Positions 9,488 through 60,750 of a DNA stretch of 64,000 nt are shown one piece after another. Positions within the stretch are counted from its first letter, which is position 1. Each line of letters opens with the position of its first letter. Both the position numbers and the translations under genes were made by a program. A model generated the notes under the pieces. That model saw only the letters and a list, made by a program, of their open reading frames with translations. It had not been told where the DNA came from and did no database searches. Source of the DNA: Pseudomonas putida (lineage in GTDB: Bacteria > Pseudomonadota > Gammaproteobacteria > Pseudomonadales > Pseudomonadaceae); NCBI RefSeq assembly GCF_025905425.1, contig NZ_CP109603.1:1586001-1650000 (forward strand), in the 5' to 3' direction.

Positions 9488-9557
9488 GGCTGGCCCATAC
9501 GCCGTCTTTGTGTAGGCGATTGCCCAGGCCCTTGGGGTAACAGTGGTCATGTGGGAG

Positions 9558-9650
9558 CAACTGTCTTCTTGTGGAAGCTGGCCTTGCCGGCGATGGGGCG
9601 CGTAGCGCCCCAGGCCCGGCTGTGCCGGGCATCGCCAGCAAGGCTTGCTC
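9558..9650 (-). repeat. Right end of the IS110 element with two hairpins
   Basis: The sequence after the transposase stop contains two palindromes, ggggcgcgtagcgcccc (9596-9612) and cccggctgtgccggg. They are flanked by gtaggagcaagccttgctgg-type sequence that itself resembles a REP of a different subtype. The element therefore carries a REP-like pair at its end. Confidence 0.6.
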
Positions 9651-10586
9651 CTACGAATGAGCTATTTGCTCCTTCCAGGGCGTTCCGGTCTTGAGCATCG
9701 CATTTAGCCTCACTATCAATACTCGCATACACGCCACCACCGATACTTTCGCGCACTTCCCCTGGGCTCGCAGTGCTTTGTAGCGCTCGCAGAAGTCCTT
9801 GTTGTGCCGTATCACCACCCAGCAGGCCATATAGAGCGCCCGCCTGACTTGTGAGCGTCCCCCCCAGATTGAACGCTTGCCCGACTGCTTGCCGCTGTCC
9901 TGATTGAACGGCGCAACACCGACCAAGGCGGCAATTTCCTTCTTATCCACCTGGCCCAGCTCTGGCAGCAAGGCCATCAGCTTTCCGGCAGTAATCAGAC
10001 CAATTCCTTTGACTTGAGTGAGCTGTTTAACCCGATCATCAGGCAAAGCTGCTGCCTGCTGTGCGATCTCTTGTTCCAGCGCTTGAATTTCACCCTTCAG
10101 ATAGGCGATGTGTTGTTCCAACCGCAAACAAACACTGGGAGCCCGCGCCTGCTTCAGGCGCCGCTTGTCATCGTCGCGCTGTTGGACGAAGCGATCCCGC
10201 TGCATAAGCAGTTCGCGCAGCAAGGCCCGCTCGGGTGTCATCACCTGGCAAGGCCGTGGGGGCATAACTTCAGCCAGGTGAGCCAAAACAGCTGCGTCAA
10301 TGGGATCGGTCTTGGCGCGTTTACCCATCGACTTGGCAAAGTCCCGGGCACGACTGGGATTGATCCGGCAAACCGGAAAATCGGCATCCTGCAGCGCTTT
10401 GAGGACATTGCACTCGTAGCCACCGGTAGCTTCGAGCAAGACCATTGAAACTGCATACCCGCCAAGCTTTTCGACGAGCAGTTGGAATCCCTTCAAGTCA
10501 TTGGAAACACTGAAGTTCACCCCCTCAGGGCGGATGTGAACAGCAAGTGTGGCACTGGAAACATCGATGCCGACAGAGGAAGACAT
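9651..10586 (-). CDS. IS110-family transposase (DEDD recombinase)
   Basis: A 311-residue transposase with an N-terminal RuvC-like DEDD domain (D8 in GIDVSS, E52 in LEATGGYE, D94 and D97 in KTDPIDA), a central coiled coil (about 118-182), and a C-terminal Transposase_20 domain with KGIGLITA and the presumed catalytic serine S231 in FNQDSGKQSGKR. IS110 recombinases act with an element-encoded bridge RNA and join DNA at a core dinucleotide. The ATG at 10586 follows gagggtttggcc; an in-frame TTG six bases upstream is also possible. All expected catalytic residues are present, so the protein looks intact. Confidence 0.92.
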   Translation of the reverse strand: MSSSVGIDVSSATLAVHIRPEGVNFSVSNDLKGFQLLVEKLGGYAVSMVLLEATGGYECNVLKALQDADFPVCRINPSRARDFAKSMGKRAKTDPIDAAVLAHLAEVMPPRPCQVMTPERALLRELLMQRDRFVQQRDDDKRRLKQARAPSVCLRLEQHIAYLKGEIQALEQEIAQQAAALPDDRVKQLTQVKGIGLITAGKLMALLPELGQVDKKEIAALVGVAPFNQDSGKQSGKRSIWGGRSQVRRALYMACWVVIRHNKDFCERYKALRAQGKCAKVSVVACMRVLIVRLNAMLKTGTPWKEQIAHS

Positions 10587-10798
10587 GGCCAAACCCTCTT
10601 AAACTCAAGGAGTGAGAGCGCTTTGGCTTGGCCCACGCTTGTGATTCGAGATTACGCCCCTCATCCAACTGTTCGGGCTCTCGCCAAAGTGGAACGGTGG
10701 ATGGCAGCTTTTGCTCCCACACGTGCTCTGGGCACCTCGGGCTATCAGCTTGCCATTCACCGCTCTCACTTCAGATTCTATTCCCTCTCCAAGACACA
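10587..10798 (-). ncRNA. Candidate bridge RNA region of the IS110 element
   Basis: The 212-bp non-coding end upstream of the transposase is where IS110-group elements encode their bridge RNA. Read on the transposase strand it contains, in order: AGCCCG (10743-10738), identical to the left side of the REP target; GTGTGGGAGC (10722-10713), complementary to the right side; ACAGTTG (10672-10666), identical to the last seven bases of the element's right end; and CACAAG (10643-10638), complementary to the first bases after the other core (CTTGTG). This is the left-target, right-target, left-donor, right-donor order of known bridge RNAs. The ends of the RNA and its promoter were not determined. Confidence 0.7.
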
Positions 10799-10880
10799 AG
10801 CGGGCTTGCCCCGCCAATGAGGCCGCGCGGAGCATGGCACCGGCTTCGCCGGTGTTCGCGGGGCAAGCCCGCTCCCACAG
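10799..10880. repeat. REP pair, first REP split by the IS110 element
   Basis: The remainder of a REP whose head (9548-9557) is on the other side of the IS. It is followed by ggcaccggcttcgccggtg and the inverted partner ending gcaagcccgctcccacag. Confidence 0.85.
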
Positions 10881-59749: not shown

Positions 59750-60750
59750 TGAGCTGCGCTGTCGCACAGACAACAGTGGCAGATAATACAGGTCTTGTGG
59801 GAGCGGGCTTGCCCCGCGAAGGGGGCCACGCGGAGCATGGCACCGGCTTCGCCGGTGTTCGCGGGGCAAGCCCGCTCCCACAGAGTTAATTTTTTGTTCT
59901 ATGGGAGATTGCCCAGCCTCTTGGGGCTGCGCTGTCGCACAGAGAACAGTGGCAGATAACACAGGTCTTGTGGGAGCGGGCTTGCCCCGCGAAGGGGGCC
60001 ACGCGGAGCATGGCACCGGCTTCGCCGGTGTTCGCGGGGCAAGCCCGCTCCCACAGAGTTAAGTTTTTGTTTTATGGGAGATTGCCCAGCCTCTTGGGGC
60101 TGCGCTGTCGCACAGAGAACAGTGGCAGATAACACAGGTCTTGTGGGAGCGGGCTTGCCCCGCGAATGGGGCCACGCGGAGCATGGCACCGGCTTCGCCG
60201 GTGTTCGCGGGGCAAGCTCGCTCCCACAGAGTTAAGTTTTTGTTTTATGGGAGACTGCCCAGCCTCTTGGGGCTGCGCTGTCGCACAGAGAACAGTGGCA
60301 GATAACACAGGTCTTGTGGGAGCGGGCTTGCCCCGCGAAGGGGGCCACGCGGAGCATGGCACCGGCTTCGCCGGTGTTCGCGGGGCAAGCCCGCTCCCAC
60401 AGAGTTAATTTTTTGTTCTATGGGAGATTGCCCAGCCTCTTGGGGCTGCGCTGTCGCACAGAGAACAGTGGCAGATAACACAGGTCTTGTGGGAGCGGGC
60501 TTGCCCGCGAATGGGGCCACGCGGAGCATGGCACCGGCTTCGCCGGTGTTCGCGGGGCAAGCCCGCTCCCACAGAGTTAAGTTTTTGTTCTATGGGAGAT
60601 TGCCCAGCCTCTTGGGGCTGCGCTGTCGCACAGAAAACAGTGGCAGATAACACAGGTCTTGTGGGAGCGGGCTTGCCCCGCGAAGGGGGCCACGCGGAGC
60701 ATGGCACCGGCTTCGCCGGTGTTCGCGGGGCAAGCCCGCTCCCACAGAGT
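59750..60750. repeat. Tandem array of six ~173-bp REP-bearing units
   Basis: ggtcttgtgggagcgggc recurs at 59791, 59964, 60137, 60310, 60483 and 60655: steps of 173, 173, 173, 173 and 172. Each unit has a REP head, a ggcaccggcttcgccggtg hairpin, an inverted REP, then a cagagttaa(g/t)tttttgtt(c/t)tatgggag spacer and cctcttggggctgcgctgtcgcacag. The units differ at only a few positions (e.g. gaaggggg or gaatgggg; one copy lacks a C in the REP core). Open frames inside are by-products of the repeats. The whole 59640-60817 interval is otherwise gene-free. Confidence 0.93.

Follow-up and report, generated by a model that had tools for sequence, protein, structure and literature searches.

The window analysed here, 64,000 nucleotides of Pseudomonas putida DNA, carries on its minus strand an insertion sequence whose features are collected in Table 1. 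The recombinase gene is counted there from the ATG; the open reading frame listed for it comprises 313 amino acids, with a TTG start at 10592, two codons upstream. Sequence relatives of the recombinase in the PDB are those of ISCro4 (9t56) and IS621 (8wt6), the homology to the IS621 recombinase reaching E 1.9e-28, and alignment to ISCro4 showed that the catalytic residues D10, E54, D96, D99 and S233 are kept (313-residue numbering). A DEDD RuvC-like and Transposase_20 recombinase with a catalytic serine places the element in the IS110 group, where the initial annotation had put it. A non-coding left end of ∼212 bp (10587–10798) lies upstream of the transposase gene (tnp) and a right end of 93 bp (9558–9650) completes the element; a long left end upstream of tnp is the arrangement of the IS110 type, not of the IS1111 type. 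No long terminal inverted repeats were apparent by eye. Of 7,940 protein matches, the 120 listed bore no name more specific than transposase or IS110 family transposase.

The genome holds 27 copies of the element, near-identical to each other (98.7–99.7%) and all with open frames free of stops. Every one of the 27 copies is flanked by CT on both sides, and insertion is site-specific. The 27 tnp genes are accompanied by 27 left ends, with no orphan or mini left ends found in this genome, and a plasmid collection searched with the element gave no match.

Table 1. Features of the IS110-group element and its flanks (positions in the window)
Feature	Position	Strand	Details
IS110-group insertion sequence	9558..10798	-	1241 bp excluding flanking CT cores; ends set by comparing 27 copies
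DEDD recombinase gene	9651..10586	-	311 aa from ATG
Recombinase domains			Pfam PF01548, E 3.7e-21; PF02371, E 4.1e-17
CT core, left end of element	10799..10800	-	
CT core, right end of element	9556..9557	-	
Left target	10801..10822	-	left half of split REP, ending AGCCCG
Right target	9550..9555	-	CCCACA, right half of split REP
Predicted bridge RNA	10612..10769	-	158 nt; closing helix GUGAGAGC/GCUCUCAC as bounds; ends predicted
Left target guide	10743-10738	-	AGCCCG; 5' side of target loop
Right target guide	10721-10713	-	TGTGGGAGC, including one further base; UGUGGGAG pairs with core CT + CCCACA, plus C10713
Left donor guide	10672-10666	-	ACAGTTG (RNA ACAGUUG)
Right donor guide	10643-10637	-	CACAAG + following C (CACAAGC)
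-10-like hexamer	10775..10780	-	TAGAAT; consensus reading only
sX15-like antisense match	10611-10775	+	

The right end holds a REP-like palindrome pair of its own (GTAGGAGCAAGCC...GGCCAGCTTCCACAAG), a pair common to L028 and L029 among the 17 right ends compared; the CT inside it fits the guides described below at only 9 of 12 positions. The right end of L052 is different and contains a complete REP, including the guide target. In L011, at ∼2735–2790, a stray right-end-like sequence (AAGACAGTTG/CTCCCATAG) lies outside the element and resembles the right end of the relative in G127; it is probably a relic of another IS110 element. The distant copies L012 and L013 have identical right flanks (CTCCCACAAAACTTTTCGTACA) and different left flanks, as if a rearrangement had taken place between copies.

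The initial annotation had read four short guides from the transposase strand of the left end, in the order known for IS110 bridge RNAs: one equal to the left target, one complementary to the right target, one equal to the element's own right end and one complementary to its other end. All four were found (Table 1), and they follow one another on the minus strand as left target guide (LTG), right target guide (RTG), left donor guide (LDG) and right donor guide (RDG). As RNA, the two target guides read AGCCCG on the left and GUGUGGGAG on the right. The final C of GTGTGGGAGC, C10713, lies past the core-pairing bases and occupies the place of the ‘handshake’ guide base of IS621 (PMC11208158). When the match was scored as the longest exact match per guide, anchored at the core and with the order LTG–RTG–LDG–RDG required, the best ordered match to the target and element ends summed to 29 nt. 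None of 20,000 sequences made by dinucleotide shuffling of the 158-nt RNA reached this value; their mean was 14.5 (sd 1.85) and their maximum 24. A second AGCCCG stands in the donor-loop stem of the RNA (10679–10674), so that the 6-mer alone would say little and it is the ordered set of guides that carries weight.

Each guide had also been described as adjoining the CT core. The cores are now fixed by the 27 copies. Pairing with CT is seen for both right guides but not for the left ones, which have AG and GA at those positions, and the match of the left target guide is confined to six bases. The pairing of the core by all four guides, which is therefore not seen here, is a property stated for IS621 and not a definition of the family.

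The predicted RNA (10769–10612) has a minimum free energy of −70 kcal/mol (z −4.29), and none of 200 shuffles was equally stable. Its fold consists of a closing stem and two hairpins, one for the target and one for the donor; each has an internal loop, and these two loops hold the guides, as the initial annotation had anticipated for this strand. RNAalifold recovered the same shape from 20 aligned sequences, two from this genome and 18 from relatives, with changes on both sides in 11 of 44 pairs. In a named structure of 39 pairs, 97.7% of the cells of this alignment were paired and nine pairs had changed on both sides, as compared with 3.8 in shuffled controls (0 of 500 as high as nine) and 0 to 3 in slid ones. 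Four of five covariation measures lay above all 500 shuffles, while the fifth, the number of further pair types, was 14 and below the shuffles (16.6). In the free RNA the CCC of the left target guide can pair with the GGG of the right one, since CCC is present on either side of CT in the target.

The insertion sites in this genome can be compared with the guides base by base. The right flank reads CT/CCCAC in all 27 copies and the left flank ends in AGCCCG in 26; the remaining copy, L009, ends in AACCCG, readable by the guide through a G–U wobble. The REP left arm TTCGCGGG stands before 24 of the 27 copies at seven or eight of its eight positions, with six in L013, four in L004 and three in L012. 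The L004 site, without a REP left arm (4/8), nevertheless matches seven nucleotides of the left guide (TAGCCCG), with a single mismatch on its right side (CCCACC). It is therefore the guide match, and not the whole REP, that is common to the 27 sites, and no copy was found with the same guides at an unrelated sequence. The exact 13-mer target AGCCCGCTCCCAC occurs at 732 sites in the genome, the reversed control pattern at none. Among the 7,010 CT sites of the window, 21 fit all 12 guide positions and six fit 10 or 11; inspected by eye, these 27 sites of the window, with scores of at least 10 of 12, are all recognizable as REPs, and no other site scores above 9, a value reached at five. A side observation is an array at 59802–60739 of the window, in which 12 unoccupied REP guide-target sites (11 perfect, one at 11/12) recur on both strands with a period of ∼173 bp; a similar array with a 179-bp period runs from G000:C1:1895496 onward.

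Among related elements, guides change together with targets. The comparison covered 79 of 104 loci (L001–L104) in 19 groups, fit being counted as Watson–Crick plus G–U pairs. Left out were 15 copies from the groups of P. hunanensis and P. palleroniana in which the contig ends before the left target (L032, L035–L038, L050, L078, L039–L041, L043, L061, L075, L093 and L094); the duplicates L030, L031, L051 and L065; L029, which fits like L070; the broken copy L057; and L048, L068, L069 and L103, in which the left end is absent or the right end was not found. Over the 19 groups, the mean fit of own guides was 0.926 versus 0.859 when permuted (0 of 20,000; kinship ignored). For the nine natural guide sets, own guides gave 0.927 versus 0.808 (sd 0.031) when swapped, a difference attained by 1 of 50,000 permutations with kinship ignored, and ten sets, with L029 and L057 added, gave 0.916 versus 0.804 (0 of 50,000, kinship again ignored). 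Once L047 and L067, the most divergent of the sets, are removed, the advantage shrinks to 0.906 versus 0.863 (23 of 50,000, likewise ignoring kinship).

Most relatives share one common target. Clear changes of guide and target together are the following. In P. putida W15Oct28 both guide and target read AACCCG, and in G018 both read ATTCG, in six of six copies. P. massiliensis has the left guide TTCGTCCC with the target TTCGCCCC, and the complement of its right guide, CTTCCTA, is also its right target. GCCCC is found in guide and target alike in three of five copies from P. palleroniana, P. orientalis and G188, and the complement of the right guide in G127, CTCCTAC, equals the target there. There are exceptions. 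The TGCCCG clade has five matched left-guide bases, position −6 never matching, and its targets would be better served by the guide of the window element. All three copies of the L066 group (G165) have a mismatch at −1. One C is missing from L044 and L062. L052 fits only after a one-base register shift; without it the score is 0.667, whereas other guides average 0.852. The broken copy L057 scores 0.818 at its own site, slightly under other guides (0.859). Apart from the L066 group and these four loci, the co-variation of guide and target that the initial annotation had proposed to look for in relatives is borne out.

The ends of the element also suggest how the RNA might be made. When the right end, core and left end are joined, TTGCTT spans the junction (9560–9558, 10800–10799 and 10798) and stands 17 bp from TAGAAT; by consensus reading only, this promoter-like pair arises only in the circle. 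The integrated copy has CCGCTT in place of TTGCTT, and a scan of its left end for sigma-70 promoters gave no hit. The same reading finds TTGCTT-17-TAnnnT in 15 of 16 elements, the exception being that of G018 (L067). A promoter-like pair at the circle junction, here a matter of sequence reading, agrees with the junction promoter of IS621 (PMC11208160). Following IS621, the element would excise as a circle, in which the joining of right end, CT core and left end would create a promoter that transcribes the left end; the RNA would fold into its closing stem and two hairpins, and the DEDD/serine recombinase would exchange strands at CT. Transcription, binding, circle formation and catalysis are in this scheme proposed by analogy.

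We conclude that the left-end feature is very probably a bridge RNA, belonging to an IS110-group element that is ISPpu10-like. The initial annotation had seen a REP-targeting bridge RNA in the upstream non-coding end, and the two-loop fold, the ordered guides, the co-variation and the 27 guide-matching sites are all in keeping with that proposal. It had further offered the RNA as a mechanism for REP-specific insertion, which guides, fold and targets support; the mechanism itself is not new, having its precedent in IS621 in 2024 (PMC11208160), and the element is a new example of it. What is added here is the natural co-variation series and a link to the small RNAs sX15 and Asr9.

This link begins with the Rfam family sX15 (RF02234), which matches the plus strand of the left end over its full length, as the antisense of the predicted bridge RNA, at 43.5 bits, under the gathering cut-off of 55. 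Just upstream of the match, a TAAACT (10600–10605, plus strand) overlaps with the ribosome site of the transposase, an arrangement also reported for the promoter of Asr9 (PMC8450116); no good −35 was seen by eye. Rfam microRNA and CRE matches near REPs, below their gathering scores, were set aside as palindrome noise. When five relatives were scanned for sX15, antisense matches exceeded the cut-off in two Pseudomonas (L054, 59.4; L047, 56.0) and fell below it in L045 (43.6) and L067 (43.1), and L029 gave no match at E 0.01. At the level of the order, none of 56 genomes had a match and control genomes were equally without one; at the level of the class, one of 321 genomes did, and the search then found matches in 6 of 17 genomes of that genus, with eight strong loci at 109–128 bits.

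At all seven testable strong loci (seven of eight overall, L120 ending at a contig end), an IS110 transposase gene or fragment adjoins sX15 on the opposite strand; it looks intact in L116, L118 and L119 and is partial in L113, L117, L121 and L122. On the transposase strand the left guide together with the core has 7 to 9 nt in common with its own flank at seven of seven loci. The right guide pairs at eight of eight positions with CTGAGTTA or CTGAATTA in L116, L118 and L119, three of the five loci with a visible right flank, and at seven of eight in L121 and L122. The flanks of the strong loci resemble what we take, from the attC consensus, to be an integron attC site, so that an attC-like target stands there in place of the REP targeted by the window element. 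Judged from these sequences, sX15, a catalogued Xanthomonas small RNA, is likely to be the antisense strand of an RNA of the IS110 bridge-RNA type. This connection was found neither in the literature at the level of titles and abstract openings nor in the sX15 passage of PMC6337395.

Asr9 of ISPpu9 is a very stable RNA of ∼180 nt, antisense to the transposase mRNA leader (PMC8450116). With Asr9 and sX15, RNAs antisense to the region of the bridge RNA have been reported from two distant lineages of IS110, provided that the strand given for sX15 in Rfam is that of the measured transcript. Such RNAs might mask the guides, make the leader accessible to translation, the role proposed for Asr9 (PMC8450116), or do both. 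Ssr9 of ISPpu9 pairs with Asr9 and is bordered by copies of the boxes found at the element ends; its orphan copies show no apparent relation to REPs (PMC8450116). Ssr9 may itself be a bridge RNA, the second of ISPpu9, carried by a mini-element. That IS110 elements widely make stable antisense ‘anti-bridge RNAs’, with Asr9 and sX15 as instances and Ssr9 as the second bridge RNA of a tnp-less mini-element, is a conjecture that we regard as possible rather than probable. If true, anti-bridge RNAs could mask guides and balance the production of recombinase against that of guide RNA. sX15 gains a likely identity, and antisense control of bridge RNAs becomes testable.

These observations raise the question of whether an antisense regulatory RNA of the Asr9/sX15 type is the main RNA product of the left end, the bridge-RNA features being secondary in this copy. 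Asr9 provides the precedent of a stable antisense to the ISPpu9 leader (PMC8450116), sX15 matches the plus strand here and in relatives, and the plus strand folds strongly (z −4.64). Its helices are, however, alike on both strands, so that antisense folding is to be expected, and the guides make sense in the sense strand only. We therefore consider this reading unlikely, and an antisense RNA and a bridge RNA are not mutually exclusive. That the element is a dead relic whose RNA has gone out of use is very improbable in view of its 27 near-identical copies, their open frames without stops and the catalytic residues that are kept. Least probable of all is that the recombinase protein itself recognizes the REP, by sequence or hairpin, and that an mRNA leader fold controlling tnp translation gives rise to the guide-like matches incidentally: REPs are palindromic and the tnp mRNA of ISPpu9 does have a structured 5' leader proposed to bury the ribosome site (PMC8450116), but four ordered matches of a kind absent from all 20,000 shuffles, guides that change with targets in relatives, the guide match of L004 without a REP left arm and the precedent of IS621 (PMC11208160) all speak against it.

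Taken as bridge RNAs, the left ends compared here form a natural series in which guides and targets have changed together. In several Pseudomonas species the targets are variants of REPs, and in another bacterial family the target is an attC-like site. Such a series helps to test which guide positions matter and could test the need for core pairing by the left guides.

Among the closest known systems is IS621, whose bridge RNA was shown experimentally in 2024 to direct insertion into Escherichia coli REPs, with 144 of 173 insertion sites in REPs (PMC11208160). The window element resembles it in having a two-loop RNA from the left end, the guide order LTG–RTG–LDG–RDG, a CT core and a REP target (PMC11208160, PMC11208158). 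In IS621 the LTG pairs over 9 nt including the core and the RTG over 4 nt, with handshake bases beside the right guides (PMC11208158). The guide lengths differ here: the left target guide has 6 nt as against 9 in IS621 (7 without core bases), and the right target guide 8 nt as against 4, core included (PMC11208158). Unlike those of IS621, the left guides face the core with AG in the target loop of the window element and with AG, CG, GA or AA in aligned relatives.

Within P. putida, ISPpu10 is among six predicted bridge RNAs given with predicted LTG, RTG, LDG, RDG, target and donor (PMC11208160, Extended Data Fig. 10c). All seven KT2440 copies of ISPpu10 lie in REPs, as do seven of seven copies of ISPpu9, and ISPpu10 has a 2-bp repeat (PMC1525189); the window element has 27 copies where ISPpu10 has seven. 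ISPpu9 is an IS110 element at the same REP position and has a structured 5' leader (PMC8450116, PMC1525189); in the passages of PMC8450116 concerned with Asr9 and Ssr9, these are described in terms of tnp regulation and not as bridge RNA. The window element, with as many left ends as tnp genes, has no orphan left ends comparable to Ssr9 (PMC8450116). In the IS1111 group, the seekRNA of ISPa11 likewise selects the target, ISPa11 being found in P. aeruginosa REPs, and its guide RNA lies downstream of tnp, in contrast to the upstream position in the window element (PMC11187229). IS1111-type elements that target attC, ISKpn4 and ISPst6, have also been described (PMC11187229).
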